NCBI GenBank assembly: GCA_005799495.1
Contig: SYGP01000031.1
Coordinates: 124,001 to 188,000 of the forward strand
Direction of reading: 5' to 3'
Source of the DNA: Planctomycetia bacterium
Lineage (GTDB): Bacteria > Planctomycetota > Phycisphaerae > Phycisphaerales > SM1A02
Length of the DNA: 64,000 nt
Shown: positions 24,451 to 34,421 of the stretch, piece by piece
Layout of the letters: every line of letters starts with the position of its first letter
Numbering within the stretch: the first letter of the stretch is position 1
Made by a program: the position numbers and the translations under genes
Notes under the pieces: generated by a model
What the model was told of the DNA's origin: nothing
The model's input: the letters and a program-made list of their open reading frames with translations, nothing else
Databases searched by the model: none

Positions 24451-25038
24451 CTCCCGAATGATCCGCGCTTGTCCGCCCCCGCGCTGCCGACTGATGACGG
24501 ACGGGAATCCCCAGATCGCGCCGCTGCGCAGCAACAGCCAACCCACGGGCACAGCGCACACACCTGTGGACATCGCCGTCAGCAGTTGCATACCAAACTC
24601 ACCGAGCGCACTTCCACTGCCCCACGGAGCCGGCGAGTCCGGGTACCAGGACCGAAGAGCCCACCATGCCGTCCAAAAGAGCCCTGCCGACAGGGCGAGC
24701 ACACATGCCAGAACGCCCAGCGCAAGCGGATTCTTCCGAACAACGACGCCACGTAGGGACAACACCGCCTCCGAGCCGAAGAACACACCAAGGGTCCATG
24801 GCGCAATCAAGTAGAGCGGCGCCCGCGGGCCAGCCATCGACGGTTCCGAGAGATCCACAAGAACTCCTGCCAACAGCGCATACCAGCGGGCTGCCGCAGG
24901 CTCAGCCTGCATGGCTGCGAACGCCACGACCACACAGACAAGGCGCGGCGTCACTCCCCCGAGTTCGAGAACACCCATGAACGACACATCGAGCACGAGC
25001 GCCGCGAAGAGCACTGCAAGTGCGAGAGGCCACCTCAT
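24448..25038 (-). CDS. mreD: Rod shape-determining protein MreD
   Basis: A 196-residue membrane protein with about five to six hydrophobic helices. Sequence identity to MreD is weak, as usual for this protein, but size, topology and position directly after mreC (4-base overlap) make the call. MreD works in the inner membrane with MreC and MreB in the elongasome that guides lateral-wall synthesis. The C-terminus WGFPSVISRQRGGGQARIIRE is basic and cytoplasmic. Confidence 0.82.
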   Translation of the reverse strand: MRWPLALAVLFAALVLDVSFMGVLELGGVTPRLVCVVVAFAAMQAEPAAARWYALLAGVLVDLSEPSMAGPRAPLYLIAPWTLGVFFGSEAVLSLRGVVVRKNPLALGVLACVLALSAGLFWTAWWALRSWYPDSPAPWGSGSALGEFGMQLLTAMSTGVCAVPVGWLLLRSGAIWGFPSVISRQRGGGQARIIRE

Positions 25039-25877
25039 GGTGGGCCTCCGCCCGACACTCGAACGACGACGTCTCCCACCCGAGAACCATCCACCGCAGG
25101 GTCGATGATGGCTTCCCCCCGAAGTGGCTGCGAGTCCTTTCGCCGAACTTCACGAACCACCCCGATCCGCATCCCCTGCGCACCCGGCGGCCAAGCCGTA
25201 TCGCGCACGCGAACCATGTCGCCCGCGGCCACGGCGGAACCCAGGTCCACGTCCCCCCTCAGTTGCCCACGCCCATCAGGCACGATCTGGACTGCGATCG
25301 ACTCGGGGCGTTTGGCGCCCTCCTGTGCCGCCGGCGTGATGTAGGCGTCCACTCTTCCACACGCTCGGTCTACGACGGACATCACGGTGCTCGTGACATT
25401 TCCGACATCTGGAGCGATTCGACCCGCGATGGCGTCCCCGCCGAAAAGAACCACATCGCCCGCAGCGATTCCTTGGCGCGATCCGCAGTTGAGCTTCAGG
25501 GCAAATCCACCGCCGCTTGCACTGCGGGTCAGCACCGATGCAGCTGCGTACTTCGCATTCCCATCGCGGGAAGTTCTGGCCGCCACCTCATAGGCTCGGA
25601 GGCGCTTCTCCAGTTCCTGCACCTTGATCTGTTCGGCGTGCCAGAGACCGCGGTATCGATCACGCTCCTCCACGACGCTCGCATCTGCCTCCTGCGGTCC
25701 ACCCCTGTCGGGTCGAAGCCACTGGCGCAAGGATGTTCCGGCATGTGCGAGCGGCGAAAGCGGAACCCACAGCACAGCCGAGAGATCTGAAGACCATGGC
25801 GCCACCCACCGCGCCGGCATCAAGCCAAGCAGCATCACGAACGCGACAGCGATGACGATCGGCGGAATGCGGCGCAC
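25035..25877 (-). CDS. mreC: Rod shape-determining protein MreC
   Basis: A 280-residue bitopic protein: a signal anchor at ~5-20, a helical/coiled segment (~65-100, rich in Glu and Arg, including EERDRYRGLWHAEQIKVQEL) and a C-terminal two-barrel periplasmic domain with GSRQGIAAGDVVLFGG and GSRVGDVVVRV, typical of MreC. It links MreB filaments and the cell-wall synthases. The start is GTG, 38 bases after mreB's stop; mreD overlaps its end. Length and layout fit the family. Confidence 0.9.
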   Translation of the reverse strand: MRRIPPIVIAVAFVMLLGLMPARWVAPWSSDLSAVLWVPLSPLAHAGTSLRQWLRPDRGGPQEADASVVEERDRYRGLWHAEQIKVQELEKRLRAYEVAARTSRDGNAKYAAASVLTRSASGGGFALKLNCGSRQGIAAGDVVLFGGDAIAGRIAPDVGNVTSTVMSVVDRACGRVDAYITPAAQEGAKRPESIAVQIVPDGRGQLRGDVDLGSAVAAGDMVRVRDTAWPPGAQGMRIGVVREVRRKDSQPLRGEAIIDPAVDGSRVGDVVVRVSGGGPP

Positions 25878-25915
25878 GCAGGGTGGCCCCTCTCAGTTGC
25901 GCGTGCGGCGCCCGA

Positions 25916-26983
25916 TCAGAGTTCCTCGACGTTCGACTCAAGAATGGACTTGTACTGCTCCAGGTTCTCCAGATAATCCGCCGTGCCTCGAGCAACGCAG
26001 GTCAGGGGATCCTCGGCGATCTTGACGACAAGTCCAGTGCGATTGGCGAACAACTTATCGATGCCGCGAAGCAATGCGCCTCCACCAGCCACCGTGATGC
26101 CGTTGTGCGGCAGGTCCGGGTTGCAGAGGTCGGCAGCAAGTTCAGGATCGGCCTCGCGAAGCGTCTTGACAACTTCGTCACAGATCTTCTTGAGAGGCTC
26201 GGACAGTGCTTCGCGAACCTCGACCGAGTTGACCTCGATCTGCCGGGGCAGCCCCGTCGATACATCGCGTCCACGCACCTTCATTGCCAGCTCTTGCTCG
26301 AGAGGCCAGGCGCTGCCGATGCGAATCTTGATCTGCTCGGCCGTCTGCTCGCCCACGCGAAGTCCGCGCTTTTCTTCGAGATGAACGATGATCGCCTCAT
26401 CGAAGTCATCTCCCGCCACGCGCAAGCTCGATGCCTTGGCGATATCCGCCAAACTCAGGATGGCAATCTCGCTGGTGCCTCCGCCGATGTCCACCACCAT
26501 GCTCGCAACTGCATCGTCAAAAGGCAGTTTCGCGCCCATGGCCGCCGCCATTGGCTCCTCCAGGAGGAAAACCTTTCGCGCTCCTGCACGCTCCGCACTG
26601 TCGAGCACTGCACGCTTCTCCACCGCCGTGATGCCTGAGGGAATCGAGATCACGACGCGAGGTCCAAAGATGCGGCTACGCCCCATCACCTTCTGAATGA
26701 AGTACTTGAGCATCGCCTCGGTGATCTCGAAATCCGAGATGACACCATCCTTCAGTGGGCGGATCGCTTGAATGGAGCCTGGGGTGCGCCCAAGCATCTC
26801 CTTGGCGGCAAAGCCCACCGCCGCGCCATTCATGAGCACTTGGTTCGTGCCCTTGCGTACCGCCACCACCGAGGGTTCGTTGAGAACGATGCCCTCGCCT
26901 CGGACACACACCAGCGTGTTGCATGTCCCAAGGTCGATCCCCATGTCGACGCTGAACCAACTCATCATCTTGTCAAGTGTCAT
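25916..26983 (-). CDS. mreB: Rod shape-determining protein MreB (actin homologue)
   Basis: A 355-residue bacterial actin that polymerises under the inner membrane and orients cell-wall synthesis. Phosphate-1 GIDLGTCNTLV (~15-25), IGGGTSEIA-type phosphate-2 (VVDIGGGTSEIAILSL), and the adenosine motif ITVAGGGALLRGID are all intact; IPSGITAVEKRAV is characteristic of MreB. The ATG has the strongest ribosome-binding site in the window (AAGGAGGTG, 7 bases upstream), in contrast with the leaderless-looking genes. It sits inside an operon that begins with two small accessory genes. Confidence 0.97.
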   Translation of the reverse strand: MTLDKMMSWFSVDMGIDLGTCNTLVCVRGEGIVLNEPSVVAVRKGTNQVLMNGAAVGFAAKEMLGRTPGSIQAIRPLKDGVISDFEITEAMLKYFIQKVMGRSRIFGPRVVISIPSGITAVEKRAVLDSAERAGARKVFLLEEPMAAAMGAKLPFDDAVASMVVDIGGGTSEIAILSLADIAKASSLRVAGDDFDEAIIVHLEEKRGLRVGEQTAEQIKIRIGSAWPLEQELAMKVRGRDVSTGLPRQIEVNSVEVREALSEPLKKICDEVVKTLREADPELAADLCNPDLPHNGITVAGGGALLRGIDKLFANRTGLVVKIAEDPLTCVARGTADYLENLEQYKSILESNVEEL

Positions 26984-26990
26984 GTTCGGC

Positions 26991-26999
26991 CACCTCCTT
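26991..26999 (-). promoter_or_regulatory. Strong Shine-Dalgarno sequence of mreB
   Basis: AAGGAGGTG on the minus strand, 7 bases before the mreB ATG; the best anti-Shine-Dalgarno match seen here. It marks mreB as a gene translated from an internal operon position. Confidence 0.75.
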
Positions 27000-27026
27000 G
27001 GCCATTGGGTTTCTCGCCCTCCGACG

Positions 27027-27401
27027 CTAGCGCGACGGAATCGTTCCGATCGGATTGCCTTCCTGTGCAGTCCCTTCCACTCCCGCCAGATTGTCGAGCG
27101 CGATCAACGCGCAACCTACCAAGAGCGCGACAGCCGCAGCGGCCAACACGCCCGTGTAGATGTTCAGTTCTCCACCAGCCTTTCGCGCCTTCGGCGCTGC
27201 AGACGGCTTGGTCTTCTCGGTCTTGACCTTGGACGACTTGTCAGGCACAGCCTTGCTCTTTCGCCCAAAGAGCCCCTTCTTCTCAGCGGTCACCGCTGGC
27301 GCGACGGACTCGCCAAACTCGACCGGCGCGGCATCACCCTCCGCGTTCGCGGGAACCACAGGGTTCTTGGGTGCCTTCTTGCCTATGCCGAGGAATGCCA
27401 T
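27027..27401 (-). CDS. Small single-pass membrane protein in the mre operon
   Basis: A 124-residue protein with a soluble, Lys/Pro/Ala-rich N-terminal ~85 residues and one C-terminal transmembrane helix (~91-113: ...VLAAAAVALLVGCALIAL...), followed by a short tail. I do not recognise it. It opens MAFLGIGKKAPKNP and contains a second GLFGRKSK motif, so it may carry two copies of a short FG[IR]GKK-type element. Location directly upstream of mreB suggests a shape or envelope accessory role. The ATG was chosen because the upstream in-frame extension runs antisense-like through the neighbouring gene. Confidence 0.65.
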   Translation of the reverse strand: MAFLGIGKKAPKNPVVPANAEGDAAPVEFGESVAPAVTAEKKGLFGRKSKAVPDKSSKVKTEKTKPSAAPKARKAGGELNIYTGVLAAAAVALLVGCALIALDNLAGVEGTAQEGNPIGTIPSR

Positions 27402-27454
27402 ATGGGTCTTTCTTCGCGGGTCTTTCTTCGTCCTTGGAGAAACGGCCGTCCGAT

Positions 27455-28354
27455 TCACTGACCCTTGCGGATCGTCACCTTTTGTCCAGCGCGAACCGCG
27501 CCGCGACCTGCCGCATCTTCCATTTCCACCGTACCAACAGCCTTGTTGACATCCACCGAGGTGATTTGAAGCTTCCCGATGAAACGCGAACCATCTCCGA
27601 TGGTCATCACCCAACCAACCTTGACGCCATCGCGGCTGCCCGCGTCGATCTCCGCGTAAACGCCGCCATCCGTTCGGCGCACATTGACGATCTTGGCAGC
27701 GAGGTTGCGGTCCGCCACCTCTGCAACCGGCGCAGAAGTCGAAGCCTGCTGCTCCTGTTCGGATGGTCCGTAGCGCGCCGTGAACGCCTGCACCACCTGA
27801 TCGGACTTCGCCTTCGAACTCGACAGGGACGCGACCTGCTCGCGCAGATCTCCGAGAGCCTCCTGGGCCATGCGCAGGTCGCTCTCAGTCTTGCCAAACT
27901 TCTGCTCGACATCGATCTTCATGCGTTCGCAGTCGGTGAGTGATGTGCGCTGCTTGTCCAACTCCTCGCTGATGGTCTTGATGAGTTCCATCTTCGCCCG
28001 ATCACCGTCCGTCACAACGGCGAGCGACTGCTCGAGGCTCGCGAGGCGAATCTTCGTCTGCGCCAACTCGCCGTCCGCCGAGCGAATCTTCGCCATGGCC
28101 TGAGCGAGTTCCGCCTGCAGCCGCCCCTTCTCCGCATCGAGATCCTTGATCTGAAGCGCAGCGTCACTCTCCGCCTTGGATCGCAGCGCTCGCTCCGTCT
28201 CGAGTTCGTTGCGACCTGCTGCAACCTTCGTTTCCGCATCCTTGACCTGCTGCCGCAGCGCGGCTTGATTGCTCGACTGCACGGCAGCGAGTGGCACGAT
28301 GGCAACCGCAAGAAGCGAAACGAGTACGACGAAGACCTTGGTGAGAATGTGCAC
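27455..28354 (-). CDS. Membrane-anchored coiled-coil protein at the head of the mre operon
   Basis: A 299-residue protein. A signal anchor (~5-24: KVFVVLVSLLAVAIVPLAA) leads into a long coiled coil (~28-185) rich in Ala, Glu, Lys and Gln, then a C-terminal beta domain (~215-299) with phrases such as GVYAEIDAGSRDGVKVGWVM and GQKVTIRKG, reminiscent of the MreC barrel (compare GSRQGIAAGDVV in mreC). Function unknown; an extra-cytoplasmic partner of MreC is a fair guess. The GTG start is chosen because the anchor then begins at residue 5; ATGs at 28414 and 28420 are alternatives. Confidence 0.68.
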   Translation of the reverse strand: MHILTKVFVVLVSLLAVAIVPLAAVQSSNQAALRQQVKDAETKVAAGRNELETERALRSKAESDAALQIKDLDAEKGRLQAELAQAMAKIRSADGELAQTKIRLASLEQSLAVVTDGDRAKMELIKTISEELDKQRTSLTDCERMKIDVEQKFGKTESDLRMAQEALGDLREQVASLSSSKAKSDQVVQAFTARYGPSEQEQQASTSAPVAEVADRNLAAKIVNVRRTDGGVYAEIDAGSRDGVKVGWVMTIGDGSRFIGKLQITSVDVNKAVGTVEMEDAAGRGAVRAGQKVTIRKGQ

Positions 28355-28531
28355 GGGGTTGACCTTGCAGATGATTGCCGAACGCAATACCGCCTCAGAG
28401 AGTCCCCTGAGCATCCACATCGATCCAGCGTCACCGCCGAGTCCGAGGCGAACGTCAGGGCGCCGATCCGACAGCGTCGACCATGATGGCAGACTGAAGC
28501 GGCACTGGCCCGAGACCGAAACCAACCACCA

Positions 28532-28560
28532 TTTTTACTTCAGAAAACCCCCGTTGTCAA
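28532..28560 (-). promoter_or_regulatory. Near-consensus sigma-70 promoter for the mre operon
   Basis: On the minus strand a perfect -35 TTGACA (28560-28555) is followed by exactly 17 bases and the -10 TAAAAA (28537-28532, then T). It lies immediately after the stop of the Lnt-HEAT gene and points at the coiled-coil gene, with a predicted leader of ~170 bases. It is the best housekeeping-type promoter seen in the window. Confidence 0.7.
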
Positions 28561-28564
28561 CGCA

Positions 28565-31500
28565 TCAGCGCGCCCGAGCGGCAGAATCGGTCGCACCGAT
28601 GGGAGGGAGTGCCTCCGTGGGCTTGGCCGTCGCCCGCAAGTACGCCGCGGCGGCGGAGATCGCCACCAAACTGTCCGGGTCCTGCATGAGCGGTGCAACT
28701 GCAGCAGCCGCGCGGGCGCCGCCGAGCCATCCGAGCGTTGAAGCGGCTTGCGCGCGAATCGAACCGTTCGGATCCTTGATGGCGGTCAGGGAAAGTACGA
28801 AGATCGGGTCCACATTTGGCTCGCCAATCCGCACGAGCGCCGTTCCAGTCAAAAGCCGAATCTCCATGGGGCGCTCCATCGATCCCCGCCCATTCCAGAT
28901 GCCGATCAAACTGCCGCGCGCGCCACGATCGTTCACTTCGCCGACCATCTGGCACGCCAGTGCGATCAACTCGGCTTGCTCGCTCGGAGCGAACAAAGCC
29001 GCGCGGATCGGATCGTATTGCCGGTAGTCGCCCATCTTGCACATCGCCTCCGCGGCTTGCAGTTCGACGATGCGCGTTCGGATCTCATCGGTGGTCCGAA
29101 GCGGGCGACCGATGCACGCTTCGATCAGCGGAATCGCCGAGGGGTTTCGCAACTCGCCGAGGACAAAGAACGCATTGGAGCGAGTCTCCGGATCCTCACT
29201 CATCGCCAAGCGCAGGAGCGGATTGAGATCCATTCGCTGCCCGAGACGCGCAAGCGCAAAGAGCGCCGACGCTTGCACGGAAGGGTTCGCATCAAGCAGC
29301 AACGGCTGCAGGAGAGTCGCACAGCGGTCGATCCGCTTCCGCCCGATCATGACTGCCGCAGCGAACCGAACGCCGGGACTGGGATCGCCGAGCAGCTTGC
29401 ACGCAACCTCTGCAAGTGCATCGGGTCTCGTCTGAAGTGCCTCGAGTGCGTGGGAGCGGAGGATCGCTGCCTCACTCGACGCCGCGCGTGCAATCAGATC
29501 GAACGCCATCTGTTCATTGGCATCGACTCCGACAAAGGTGAACTTGACGGACGGCACCGATGAATCCGTTGGCGTGGTTGCCGCAGCCGGCGGCGTTGGT
29601 GCTGGCGCTGCCGCTGGAACTTCAGCCGCCGCAGGCGCGGGAGCCGGCGGCGCGATTGCCACAGGTTGCGGCTGCGGATCAGCCACTTTCGAGGCAGGAG
29701 GGATCACGGACGCAATCGGCATGGACTCCGTTGTCCCGCTGATGGCTGCATCAATCGGCTGCGGTTCGGGCTCCGCCGCGGCGCCTTGCGATGGTGCGGG
29801 CCGCGTGCTCGCCAGACCCGATGCGCGCCCAGAATCTGGATTGACGGGCGCCCCTTCCGCCTGCCCATCGACGCTGCGCGATGACCAGCCCGTTCCGCTG
29901 AACACGGCGCGAGGCTGCGATTCCTCGCTGCAACCGATCCAGAGCAGCGGGAAGATCACAACGAGGAGTGCCGAAACTCTCTGCAGGCTCCGCCGCCCTG
30001 GCACAACCATGATCGCCAGCAAGAACGCCACGACAGGAGAGAATACATCGCCCACGCGACCGTAGAGGGGCTGGCGGTCATCCATCGGCAACTCAGCGAC
30101 AAAGCCGCCCGCAAGACGCGGTGCGACCTCGGCTCCCTCAATCGGCACTCCCCTGCTGTCGAACGCACGCGAGCGTCCGGTGTTCGCAGCGCGCACCATG
30201 GGCAGGCGATTCTCGATGCAACGCCAGCGCGCCAGCAGCTCATGCGTGTGCCGCCCCGAATCGCAGTCACCAAACCATCCGTCATTCGAGAGATTCACCA
30301 ACAACTTCGCCTGTTTCCGCCCGGCATCATCGTGCGTGATCCGACGCACGACCTCCGCCATGGTGTCCTCGAAGCAGATCGGCGTCGCCAACTCGATTCC
30401 ATCCTCCACCGTGCTCACTCCATCGGCCCCGCGCCTACGCAGCAGCAGGCGGCGCGGCACCGACGCCGTATCGAGATCGAACTGCATGCCAGTCGCACCG
30501 ATGGCAAGGAGCCGATCTTCGAGCCATTTCCAGTTCGAAATGTAGGGCATGGTTTCGCCGAAGGGAGTCAAGTGGATCTTGTCGTAACGCTGATAGGGCG
30601 GCTCCCCGTCCACCAGATACGCGCTGTTGAAGTGCTCGCTCCAAGCCCAGCGTTCCCCGTTCTCCCGGAGACCGATGTACACGGGACTTCCGACGATGAG
30701 AGGCGCATCGATGCGCCTCGAAACATCCGCTGCGAGCGTGGCAAACCTCTCGCCAGGCCACCACGAACCCTCCACCAACTTCCGAACCGTCGCGGGCTCG
30801 AGTCCGAAGCCCGGCAACATCGTTTCAGGCCAGACTGCACAGTCGAGGTTGCCGCGGTCGCGTGATGCCCGGACAAGTTCGATCGTTGCCCTCGCGAACG
30901 ATGCAGCATCCTCCTCTTGCTGCTGGCGGCTCCATCGCAGCTTGTTGCTTGTCGGCACATTGGTCTGGACGACTGCGACACGCAGCTGCGACCCAGCAGG
31001 AGCACTGCGCTGCAGCGCGTCCCACTCCGAGAGTCGGTGCGCTCCATACGCCATCGCTCCGACCCAAGCGATCAACACTGCGATGCCCCCCTGCAGCACA
31101 TGTCGCCTCAGGGTCGGATCCGGCGTTCCCCGTCGGAGACAGATCAAATCGACGAGCACGCCAACCGTTCCGCCGACGAGCAGGGTCACGAGCGGAACAC
31201 CGCCCACATCCGCCAACTGAGCCAACACAGGAAAGTCCACGAGCGGCTGCGCAAAGGCGAACCATGGGTAGCCATGGAAGATCACCGTCCCCTGCAACCA
31301 CTCCAGGGTGATGAGAACGGCAGGAAGGCGGATGGCACGCGGCAGGTGACGCCCAATGAACCCGCGGCGGGTTCGCCGCATGATCCAGACGCCCGCGACC
31401 GCGTACAGCGCGAGATATCCGCACAGCACGGGATATCCAGCGAGCGTCACGCCGATCATCCAGCGGTGAAACCACAGCCACACCGCAAGCGCGCTGGCAT

Positions 31501-31702
31501 AGAGCGCCCACCACATGTGATGCGGCAGCCGATCGCTGCTCGCGAGCAGCGCCCATCCGAGCGGGACGATCAGCGCCACCGGCCAGAGCGAAAAGGGTGG
31601 GAACGCCAGCACCAGACAGACGGGAGTCAGGACGCAGAACAGCAGCGCAAGCGGTGTCGACGGAACAAGCGTGCCCGCCCCAATCAGTGATGGGCCTTTC
31701 AC
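28565..31702 (-). CDS. lnt: Apolipoprotein N-acyltransferase fused in frame to a HEAT-repeat lipoprotein-like domain
   Basis: A 1045-residue open frame. Residues 1-~565 are a complete Lnt, which N-acylates lipoprotein cysteines: membrane helices, then a nitrilase domain with Glu in CAVWPETMLPGF, Lys in YQRYDKIHLTPFGE and Cys in TPICFEDTM as triad, and the usual last helix after RVGDVF. There is no stop there. The frame runs on into RRSLQRVSALLVVIFPLLWIGC, which looks like a lipoprotein signal with its lipobox, a Pro/Ala linker, and HEAT repeats. The second half might be made separately from ATG 30010. The GTG start lies one base past the accD stop. Confidence 0.85.
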   Translation of the reverse strand: MKGPSLIGAGTLVPSTPLALLFCVLTPVCLVLAFPPFSLWPVALIVPLGWALLASSDRLPHHMWWALYASALAVWLWFHRWMIGVTLAGYPVLCGYLALYAVAGVWIMRRTRRGFIGRHLPRAIRLPAVLITLEWLQGTVIFHGYPWFAFAQPLVDFPVLAQLADVGGVPLVTLLVGGTVGVLVDLICLRRGTPDPTLRRHVLQGGIAVLIAWVGAMAYGAHRLSEWDALQRSAPAGSQLRVAVVQTNVPTSNKLRWSRQQQEEDAASFARATIELVRASRDRGNLDCAVWPETMLPGFGLEPATVRKLVEGSWWPGERFATLAADVSRRIDAPLIVGSPVYIGLRENGERWAWSEHFNSAYLVDGEPPYQRYDKIHLTPFGETMPYISNWKWLEDRLLAIGATGMQFDLDTASVPRRLLLRRRGADGVSTVEDGIELATPICFEDTMAEVVRRITHDDAGRKQAKLLVNLSNDGWFGDCDSGRHTHELLARWRCIENRLPMVRAANTGRSRAFDSRGVPIEGAEVAPRLAGGFVAELPMDDRQPLYGRVGDVFSPVVAFLLAIMVVPGRRSLQRVSALLVVIFPLLWIGCSEESQPRAVFSGTGWSSRSVDGQAEGAPVNPDSGRASGLASTRPAPSQGAAAEPEPQPIDAAISGTTESMPIASVIPPASKVADPQPQPVAIAPPAPAPAAAEVPAAAPAPTPPAAATTPTDSSVPSVKFTFVGVDANEQMAFDLIARAASSEAAILRSHALEALQTRPDALAEVACKLLGDPSPGVRFAAAVMIGRKRIDRCATLLQPLLLDANPSVQASALFALARLGQRMDLNPLLRLAMSEDPETRSNAFFVLGELRNPSAIPLIEACIGRPLRTTDEIRTRIVELQAAEAMCKMGDYRQYDPIRAALFAPSEQAELIALACQMVGEVNDRGARGSLIGIWNGRGSMERPMEIRLLTGTALVRIGEPNVDPIFVLSLTAIKDPNGSIRAQAASTLGWLGGARAAAAVAPLMQDPDSLVAISAAAAYLRATAKPTEALPPIGATDSAARAR
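30040..30045 (-). promoter_or_regulatory. Possible internal -10-like hexamer within the lnt fusion
   Basis: TATTCT on the minus strand, 8 bases before an in-frame GTG (30031) and 29 bases before the ATG (30010) that begins the lipoprotein-like signal. It could drive separate expression of the HEAT half. Coding constraint makes a chance match plausible. Confidence 0.25.
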
Positions 31703-31703
31703 A

Positions 31704-32540
31704 TCAGTTGCCGGAGTAGTCGATGATGCGGCTGATCTCACTGCGAAGATTCGCTCGGTGGACGATTCGATCGACGAATCCTGCGTCGAGCAGGAACTCG
31801 CTGGTCTGGAAGCCTTCCGGCAACTCCTGGCGGATCGTTTGCCGCACCACGCGCGGACCTGCGAACCCAATGAGTGCCTTGGGCTCGGCAAAGATCAGAT
31901 CGCCGAGCATGGCGAAGCTTGCCGTCACACCACCCGTGGTCGGGTCGGTGAGCACCGAGATGAAGAGTCCACCTGCCGAGTCGAGTCGGGCAAGGGCCGC
32001 GCTTGTCTTCGCCATCTGCATGAGCGAAAACCCTGACTCCTGCATGCGAGCACCACCCGAGCAACTCACCACGATCAGCGGCAGCCGCTCGGCAAGCGCC
32101 GTCTCGACGGCGCATGTCACCTTTTCGCCGACAACGGATCCCATGGATCCAGCGAGAAAGTGAAAGTCAAGCACGGCGAGCACGACACGCCGCCCTTTGA
32201 TGAACCCCTGCCCGACCTGTGCGCCGTCCGGCGAACCCGTGGCACGTTGCGCCTGTTCGAGACGCTCCGGATAGGGCTTCAGATCCACGAACTTCAGCGG
32301 ATCCGATGGCGCAAGATCCGCCTGAAGCGGTTCGAAGGTGCCCGGATCGAGCAACTGCTCCACGCGTTGCCTGCCGCCGATGCGCATGTGGTAGTCGCAC
32401 TTGGGGCAGACCATGAGGTTCTGCTCCACCGCTTTTCGAAAGAGCGTCTCGCTGCACGCTGGGCACTGCATCCAAAGCCCGTCGGGCACCGCGCGCTTGG
32501 TGGCGGGAGCCGCGGCCACATCCCAGGTCGGCTGAGCCAT
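31704..32540 (-). CDS. accD: Acetyl-CoA carboxylase carboxyltransferase subunit beta
   Basis: A 278-residue subunit that, with AccA, transfers CO2 from biotin to acetyl-CoA at the first step of fatty-acid synthesis. An N-terminal C4 zinc ribbon (CPAC at ~26-29, CPKC at ~45-48) is followed by the crotonase-fold carboxyltransferase with SCSGGARMQEG-like SCSGGARMQES, TDPTTGGVTASFAMLGD and GFAGPRVV. The ATG at 32540 is favoured because TAGAAT lies 7 bases upstream and overlaps the alternative ATG. lnt follows directly. Confidence 0.96.
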   Translation of the reverse strand: MAQPTWDVAAAPATKRAVPDGLWMQCPACSETLFRKAVEQNLMVCPKCDYHMRIGGRQRVEQLLDPGTFEPLQADLAPSDPLKFVDLKPYPERLEQAQRATGSPDGAQVGQGFIKGRRVVLAVLDFHFLAGSMGSVVGEKVTCAVETALAERLPLIVVSCSGGARMQESGFSLMQMAKTSAALARLDSAGGLFISVLTDPTTGGVTASFAMLGDLIFAEPKALIGFAGPRVVRQTIRQELPEGFQTSEFLLDAGFVDRIVHRANLRSEISRIIDYSGN

Positions 32541-32547
32541 GCGCCCC

Positions 32548-32553
32548 ATTCTA
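32548..32553 (-). promoter_or_regulatory. -10-like hexamer of accD-lnt
   Basis: TAGAAT on the minus strand, 7 bases before the ATG at 32540; the closest match to TATAAT among the short-leader genes. Confidence 0.55.
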
Positions 32554-33252
32554 TCGACCGCGATTCCTGTGAACGCCCCGAATCGAGGCGATCGCCGATC
32601 TGCGGCTTGCAGAGCCAAAGACATGCGCGCCCGCCACGAGCGCGTCGCAGCCCGCATCGCGGCATGCGGCCGCCGTATCGGATGCGATGCCGCCATCCAT
32701 CTCCACGCGGCGCAGCGGTCCGCACCGCTTGCGGATGGCGCGGACCTTCGGGAGCGACGATGGCAGGAACGCCTGCCCACCAAATCCAGGCTCGACACTC
32801 ATCACGAGAAAGAGATCCGCCTCGTCCAAGAACGGCGACAGGGCAGTCCAGGGAGTCTTGGGCTTGATGGCAATTCCAGCCGTCAGCCCGGCTTCCTTGA
32901 TGCGGCGCAACAGCAGGCGCGGATTGCGTTCCACCTCGAGATGAAAGGTGATGTTGTTCGCCCCAGCGCGCACAAACGGATCGATGAAGTCCCGCGGGTT
33001 CCGGATCATCAGGTGCACATCAATCCACACCCGCGGAGCTGCGCGGCGCACCGCAGCACACACCGCTGGCCCCATCGAGAGGTTGGGCACGAAGTGACCA
33101 TCCATGATGTCGACATGGATGAAGTCGGCACCGCTGCGCACGACGTCACGAACCTCCGCGCCGAGGCGAGTGAAATCAGCCGAGAGGATCGATGGTCCGA
33201 CGAGCGGTGCAGTCAAGGGACCACGAAATGGACACACGGGGGCTCCTGCCAT
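32551..33252 (-). CDS. rpe: Ribulose-phosphate 3-epimerase
   Basis: A 233-residue TIM barrel that interconverts ribulose 5-phosphate and xylulose 5-phosphate. Family motifs are all present: PSILSADFTRLG (~20-31), HVDIMDGHFVPNLSMGP, DVHLMIRNPR, MSVEPGFGGQAF and VEMDGGI with the metal-binding His and Asp residues. The ATG at 33252 gives the usual short head; an in-frame start 33 bases upstream is possible. It lies 35 bases after the TlpA-like gene and ends 10 bases before the accD start. Confidence 0.96.
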   Translation of the reverse strand: MAGAPVCPFRGPLTAPLVGPSILSADFTRLGAEVRDVVRSGADFIHVDIMDGHFVPNLSMGPAVCAAVRRAAPRVWIDVHLMIRNPRDFIDPFVRAGANNITFHLEVERNPRLLLRRIKEAGLTAGIAIKPKTPWTALSPFLDEADLFLVMSVEPGFGGQAFLPSSLPKVRAIRKRCGPLRRVEMDGGIASDTAAACRDAGCDALVAGAHVFGSASRRSAIASIRGVHRNRGR

Positions 33253-33287
33253 GTCGCCTCGCCTCACGCCGCGCTGCGTCCGCACGA

Positions 33288-34421
33288 TCAGGGCTTCGCG
33301 GGCACGGTTTCGACAGATCCCGCGGACGATCCACCGGACATCCTCTCGTCGGTGGGCACCTTCACCTTGACGCCCTTCTTGAGCGCAAGTTCGTAGGCTT
33401 CGAGCGTTGCCTTGAACTTGGGCTTGCGACTCGGGCTCGCGATGCGATACGCCTTCTTCTGCGCATCCACTGCCTTCGCGAAGTCACCGCGCGCAAACTC
33501 CACGCCCGCGATGGTCGACAGCGCGTTCGGGTCATTCTTCCCCGCGACCTTCAACATCGCTTCCGCTGCCTGCATCGCCAGGTCGTAGTCGTAACTCTTG
33601 TTCGCGGGATCCGACGAAAGCTCGACTGCAAGATCGCGCAGTGCATCTGCGTCACCGATCGATACGAGCCCCTTCAGGAGTTCCGCCGCGTACGCCTTCG
33701 CGCCCGCGTCGTTGTTCTCCACATTCAGCATCACTTCGTACTTCTCGATGGCGATCGGCGCGAAAATCGCTGGATCGAGGGCGATCACCTCATCGAAGCG
33801 CTTGTAGCCATCCTTGTAGTTCTTCGCATCGATCGCGCGGCGTGCCGCATCGATGAGAGGCTGCCCCTTCTTCGTCAACACTGGGTCGTAGCGTCCCGTG
33901 AGCGACAGCCGCACTGCAGTCTCGAACTCAGGTGCCATGGGGTGTCCGATGTAGACCACCTTGCCCGTGGTCTGCCCCGACTGCACCGTCGTGACGAACG
34001 CGCAGGGGATTCCCTTCTGCCCGGATGCGGTCATGAACGCCTCATTGACCTTCTTCTCTCCATCGACCGCCACGGGATAGGACATTTCGGAGCCACGCTT
34101 CTTCACGAAGGGCTCGACCTTCGAGCGATTCTCATCACTGACACCCACCACCACGAGACCTTGATCCTTGTAGGACTGGTACAACTCGTTGATGTGCGGA
34201 ATCGATCGAAGGCATGGACCGCACCATGTGGCCCAGAACTCCACGACCAGCACCTTGGTGCCCGACGCGGACAAGTCTTCGATGCTGCCTTGAACGAAAT
34301 CGAGCCCATCGAGCGCGGGGGTCGCATCACCCACGGCAAGTTTCTTCTGATCTTGCGGAGCGATCGGCGCGAGACCGAGTGCGGCAACGATGGTGAGAAC
34401 GAGGATGTGGGCGGTTCGCAT
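33288..34421 (-). CDS. Exported TlpA-type thioredoxin with C-terminal helical repeats
   Basis: A 377-residue periplasmic protein. A signal peptide (~1-20) precedes a TlpA/ResA-like domain with the redox motif WATWCGPCLRSIP (~62-74) and the cis-Pro region QKGIPCAFVT. From ~185 on, the protein is helical with TPR-like units (DAKNYKDGYKRFDEVIALDP, GDFAKAVDAQKKAYRIA). It probably reduces or isomerises disulfides of exported proteins; the repeats may dock a partner. A TATAGT box about 30 bases upstream and an AAGGAAA ribosome site show a conventional leader. Confidence 0.87.
   Translation of the reverse strand: MRTAHILVLTIVAALGLAPIAPQDQKKLAVGDATPALDGLDFVQGSIEDLSASGTKVLVVEFWATWCGPCLRSIPHINELYQSYKDQGLVVVGVSDENRSKVEPFVKKRGSEMSYPVAVDGEKKVNEAFMTASGQKGIPCAFVTTVQSGQTTGKVVYIGHPMAPEFETAVRLSLTGRYDPVLTKKGQPLIDAARRAIDAKNYKDGYKRFDEVIALDPAIFAPIAIEKYEVMLNVENNDAGAKAYAAELLKGLVSIGDADALRDLAVELSSDPANKSYDYDLAMQAAEAMLKVAGKNDPNALSTIAGVEFARGDFAKAVDAQKKAYRIASPSRKPKFKATLEAYELALKKGVKVKVPTDERMSGGSSAGSVETVPAKP

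Follow-up and report, generated by a model that had tools for sequence, protein, structure and literature searches.

Lnt and a HEAT-repeat lipoprotein encoded in one reading frame with an internal lipobox: a probable enzyme-substrate polyprotein in Phycisphaerales

The locus raises a simple question: how is a HEAT-repeat lipoprotein made when its coding sequence follows that of apolipoprotein N-acyltransferase (Lnt) in the same frame, with no stop codon in between? In the window, by which we mean the whole stretch of 64,000 nucleotides analysed here, the frame is unbroken on the minus strand from a GTG at 31702, which directly adjoins the stop of accD, to the stop at 28565. A sequence-only reading of this DNA had recognised the fusion and described it as an enzyme linked to an apparent substrate of its own, which we judge a fair description. 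It offered two options, a true fusion or a lipoprotein made separately from an internal ATG at 30010. A third reading, beyond these two, fits best: one product that would be split after translation at a retained lipobox. We give roughly 70% to the view that the ORF is translated as a single Lnt-HEAT lipoprotein polyprotein and cut at a type II signal peptide within the chain, lipidation, cleavage and topology being predicted from the sequence. The features of the ORF are:

28565..31702, minus strand: whole fused ORF of 1045 aa (Lnt, internal type II signal peptide and HEAT lipoprotein)
30002..31702, minus strand: Lnt, residues 1-567, including the last transmembrane helix (TIGR00546, Foldseek)
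30824..30826, minus strand: codon of the catalytic Glu293 (E. coli E267), an invariant column in the alignment of 15 homologues
30578..30580, minus strand: codon of the catalytic Lys375 (E. coli K335), invariant in the same alignment
30374..30376, minus strand: codon of the catalytic Cys443 (E. coli C387), likewise invariant
30008..30010, minus strand: in-frame ATG, the internal start proposed earlier, unsupported (no Shine-Dalgarno match; starts not conserved in fused relatives)
29933..30001, minus strand: basic loop GRRSLQR and second hydrophobic helix, residues 568-590, the putative internal lipoprotein signal peptide (hydrophobicity and charge, AlphaFold)
29930..29932, minus strand: codon of the lipobox Cys591, the proposed site of lipidation and cleavage (Gly590|Cys591; invariance, no changes on the tree)
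29522..29929, minus strand: disordered Pro/Ala-rich linker with a conserved W-S-S-R motif, residues 606-609 (alignment, AlphaFold)
28631..29521, minus strand: HEAT-repeat domain, residues 728-1024 (PF13646, AlphaFold helices)

The N-terminal half of the ORF is, by its sequence, an Lnt with predicted N-acyltransferase activity. The TIGR00546 (lnt) model matches with 207 bits (cut-off 133) over its positions 1-393 of 395, and Pfam matches above the cut-offs comprise LNT_N (28-176), CN_hydrolase (241-521) and, from about residue 730, HEAT_2. In Foldseek, this half matches the structures of Lnt from E. coli and P. aeruginosa (E ~1e-18, TMt 0.71-0.80). The catalytic triad of the E. coli enzyme consists of E267, K335 and C387, and Glu343 and Glu389 are also essential (PMC5500890). 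Matched by the motifs WPET, YDK and ICFE, the counterparts in the window are E293, K375 and C443, together with E383 and E445 for the two additional glutamates; all five are invariant in 15 diverse fused homologues. The earlier claim that the Lnt half is complete, with catalytic Glu, Lys and Cys and the last helix, is thereby borne out. The protein shares the LNT_N and nitrilase domains, the triad and the fold with E. coli Lnt (PDB 5n6h, TIGR00546), but unlike that enzyme it has no stop past the last helix, and its frame runs on into a putative lipoprotein signal peptide and the HEAT part.

Past the last helix of Lnt come the loop GRRSLQR, a second hydrophobic stretch ending in LLWIG-C591, the Pro/Ala-rich linker and the HEAT domain, an arrangement already described from the sequence and now confirmed by the frame, Pfam and AlphaFold. 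In the AlphaFold model of the fused protein (mean pLDDT 85) a helix at 570-590 stops right before C591, residues 590-716 are disordered and the helices of the HEAT domain occupy 728-1024. The HEAT part matches PF13646 with 78 bits (cut-off 27.7) and is built of tandem two-helix repeats, as in the HEAT family. Strong matches to this particular family were confined to the order in a sample of 40 genomes from the phylum. Within the linker, W606 and S607 are nearly invariant in the alignment of 15 fused proteins. A W[GS][ST][KR] motif shortly past the lipobox Cys (29876-29887 in the window, minus strand, residues 606-609) is present in all 35 fused ORFs known to us and in many unfused proteins; perhaps it acts as a sorting or docking signal.

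The fusion was traced through 60 related genomes and 100 drawn from the same family, whose loci were read frame by frame; named records place them in Phycisphaerales (Planctomycetota), and most are metagenome-assembled genomes. An in-frame lnt-HEAT fusion is found in 35 ORFs from nine genera of the family (g1, g2, g6, g16, g18, g43, g47, g57 and g60), a group of freshwater and marine planctomycetes. Within the window's genus the fusion is present in 17 of 17 readable ORFs; every readable genome of the other fused genera has it too, and no genus is mixed. Relatives with two separate genes throughout, named by the sequence-only reading as the contrary outcome, were not what the comparison returned, although most of the other genera do have two: a further 35 genera of the family encode Lnt and the HEAT lipoprotein by distinct genes, and so do 24/24 genomes of the order outside it. 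Such pairs are almost always adjacent and on the same strand (G133 is the exception). A lipoprotein signal peptide of the usual kind opens most of the separate HEAT genes, whose start most commonly overlaps the lnt stop codon by 4 bp. Eighty named contigs fetched separately, which overlap with the first set, give a matching picture of fused and separate genes. Three of the contigs with lnt/HEAT genes (L175, L204 and L215) are labelled Chitinophaga pinensis, Deltaproteobacteria and Vicinamibacteraceae; these labels are probably wrong, since the genes are of Phycisphaerales type.

The two genes have been fused at least twice. In trees built from the Lnt part alone, with the junction excluded, forcing all fusions into one clade was rejected (AU p = 0.00016), which rules out a single origin. 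The best tree found has one fused clade and a separate fusion in genus g47, and the unconstrained tree is not significantly worse. Earlier figures are superseded or to be read with caution: a two-tree test gave p 0.086 with a suboptimal free tree, before the searches were redone, and a first parsimony count of four changes came from a quick tree and may overstate the number of events. One of the fusions may be old enough to span eight sampled genera. The independently fused g47 also retains the lipobox Cys.

All 35 fused ORFs keep the second hydrophobic helix, a Lys/Arg-rich loop ahead of it (2-5 Lys/Arg, with Asp/Glu nearly absent) and a Cys with [GAS] at -1. On the tree, Fitch reconstruction requires no change at the Cys and two at the -1 site, whereas each of the remaining sites between -20 and +11 takes 12-18; lipidation of the Cys with no cut to follow would, however, preserve the [GAS]-Cys pair as well. 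The flanking sequence is scrambled, with a mean pairwise identity of 0.16 before the Cys and 0.13 after it, and Cys591 is the sole invariant residue between 552 and 732 in the alignment of 15 diverse fused proteins. Random placement of Cys residues within these segments gave an equally good site in 18% of ORFs (0.18 per ORF) versus the 100% observed, a comparison that is partly circular, as the search itself required a Cys, and that draws on phylogenetically non-independent ORFs. The Cys sites were assigned by an automatic finder, with three (G007, G014 and G081) assigned by eye. Unfused HEAT lipoproteins have a like tree profile, again with no changes at the Cys, and [GAS]C is present in 80 of 81 unfused relatives.

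The ORF in the window has a basic n-region, a hydrophobic h-region, [GAS] at -1 and Cys at +1, as expected of a type II signal, though not at the N-terminus of the translation product: the signal lies at residues 568-590, and internal starts are unsupported. The strict lipobox rule is [LV][ASTVI][GAS]C (PMC8689077), and WIGC in the window departs from it by the Trp at -3. So do 25 of the 35 fused sites; since only 10/35 fused and 32/81 unfused proteins conform, the lipobox of this lineage is a relaxed one. The 2.36 Mb genome that contains the window encodes two lgt genes above the Pfam cut-off (G000:C4:42995-43897 and G000:C18:5060-6028; L154, L155) and one lspA.

Under the polyprotein reading, the ribosome would make a single chain, and the eight-helix body of Lnt would insert in the membrane. 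The short basic loop after its last helix would lie in the cytoplasm and lead into the ninth helix, which would act as a lipoprotein signal peptide of the ordinary kind and bring the HEAT domain with its linker outside the cytoplasm. Lgt would then add diacylglycerol to Cys591 and LspA would cut before it, freeing the HEAT lipoprotein, while Lnt would keep the leftover ninth helix and acylate the new N-terminal Cys of the HEAT lipoprotein, its likely substrate, as well as every other lipoprotein. Such a scheme poses no bootstrapping problem, because Lgt and LspA precede Lnt in the pathway.

How does this compare with translation of the HEAT lipoprotein from an in-frame internal start, alone or beside the long form? 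The ATG at 30010 is rightly placed ahead of the signal helix, and a start codon of some kind occurs there in many fused ORFs; three of them (G018, G019 and G033) combine an ATG in the signal window with a Shine-Dalgarno-like match. Across the fused set, though, such matches stand at the background level: 4/86 starts in the signal window, no higher than the 216/2525 at start-like codons inside Lnt, against 76/169 in separate genes. Counted by gene, 4/35 fused and 61/81 unfused genes have a Shine-Dalgarno match at such starts (p = 1e-10), and 5/35 fused ORFs have no ATG, GTG or TTG at all at -36 to -15, and 11/35 no ATG. In the window itself, no Shine-Dalgarno match lies upstream of ATG 30010. 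The TATTCT hexamer that had been put forward in support of this start is present where it was placed (30045-30040, minus strand), as is the ATG, but it lacks promoter support, and a search for a promoter-like site found none. As a general mechanism, an internal start with a Shine-Dalgarno sequence or a promoter is ruled out by the background rate and the want of a promoter-like site, and we regard the nested gene as improbable here. Of the two options first proposed, then, the true fusion holds across genera and the internal start is disfavoured. The ribosome-binding signal was lost upon fusion while the lipobox was kept, the pattern expected of one chain that is then processed, rather than of a nested gene or an uncut anchor.

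The main rival of the polyprotein reading is a possible permanent tether, in which the ninth helix stays uncut and, as a transmembrane anchor, keeps the HEAT domain attached to Lnt outside the cytoplasm, perhaps with the Cys lipidated; there the domain could recruit partners or substrates to Lnt. It accords with the one continuous frame and with the fusion in every readable genome of nine genera, and a functional Lnt fusion has a precedent in Rv2051c of M. tuberculosis, an Lnt-PPM synthase whose parts are separate genes in relatives (PMC3460810). An uncut anchor, however, needs neither a Cys nor a small residue at -1, and both are kept in 35/35 ORFs while their neighbours turn over; moreover, the linker is long, disordered and poorly conserved, better suited to a lipoprotein tether than to a rigid docking domain. 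We consider the uncut form unlikely, if less so than the nested gene. A stop codon or frameshift lost between two genes by sequencing or assembly error might be suspected in metagenome-assembled genomes, given that most of the family has two genes here. The fusion is neither chance nor error, since it recurs in frame in 35 ORFs from nine genera, in many assemblies and record sets and with genus-wide consistency; an artefact is ruled out for practical purposes.

Several known systems invite comparison with the proposed polyprotein. Cytochrome b/c1 of Bradyrhizobium, encoded by fbcH, is made as a polyprotein that is split at a signal peptide lying within it, with signal peptidase I as the expected protease. 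There too, one frame encodes first a membrane protein, then the signal peptide and an exported partner; the post-translational split is only proposed in our case, and the expected machinery differs, being a lipobox served by Lgt and LspA. The unfused HEAT lipoproteins beside lnt in other Phycisphaerales share the HEAT family, the gene position, the lipobox and often W[GS][ST][KR] with the fused form, but have a start codon of their own, usually with a Shine-Dalgarno sequence and most often overlapping the end of lnt by 4 bp. In Rv2051c (Ppm1), Lnt is fused to polyprenol-phosphate-mannose synthase and, as here, joined to the product of a gene that adjoins lnt separately in relatives; its partner is a second enzyme, and no internal signal peptide is reported (PMC3460810), whereas here the partner is a likely lipoprotein substrate with a lipobox of its own. 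We found no published Lnt-lipoprotein fusion or internal lipobox in the open-access library searched, which is not proof of absence.

Much of the family shares the gene order rpe-accD-lnt-HEAT-coiled-coil-mreB-mreC, and its part accD-lnt-HEAT-coiled-coil is conserved beyond the family as well. In the window, the cluster tlpA-like/rpe-accD-lnt/HEAT-coiled-coil-mreB-mreC (25035-34421, minus strand), conserved across the family, ties lipoprotein maturation to genes for cell shape. A coiled-coil protein with no Pfam match (27455-28525, minus strand) is encoded between HEAT and mreB, a position conserved throughout the family; it may be a second MreC-like protein, as its C-terminus resembles the MreC barrel by eye. 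Given mreB and mreC nearby, the HEAT lipoprotein may plausibly take part in envelope growth. Much more tentatively, Lnt may start out as a precursor that is set free only once Lgt and LspA, the two preceding steps of its own pathway, have processed the attached lipoprotein, neither free Lnt nor its first substrate existing until then; this would be an enzyme-substrate polyprotein fixed at least twice and possibly coordinating lipoprotein maturation with mreB/mreC.

If the polyprotein reading is true, this would be a rare example in which one protein gives rise to both an enzyme and its likely substrate. Lipoprotein signal peptides are treated as N-terminal, and prediction tools search for them there; Lgt and LspA would then be able to act on polyproteins, and such lipoproteins would be missed by annotation. 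Whether Lnt requires a free C-terminus is a further question that the fused gene puts to a natural test. The conservation of a HEAT lipoprotein particular to this lineage as the neighbour of lnt, next to mreB and mreC, points to an uncharacterised partner or a privileged client of Lnt in Phycisphaerales.
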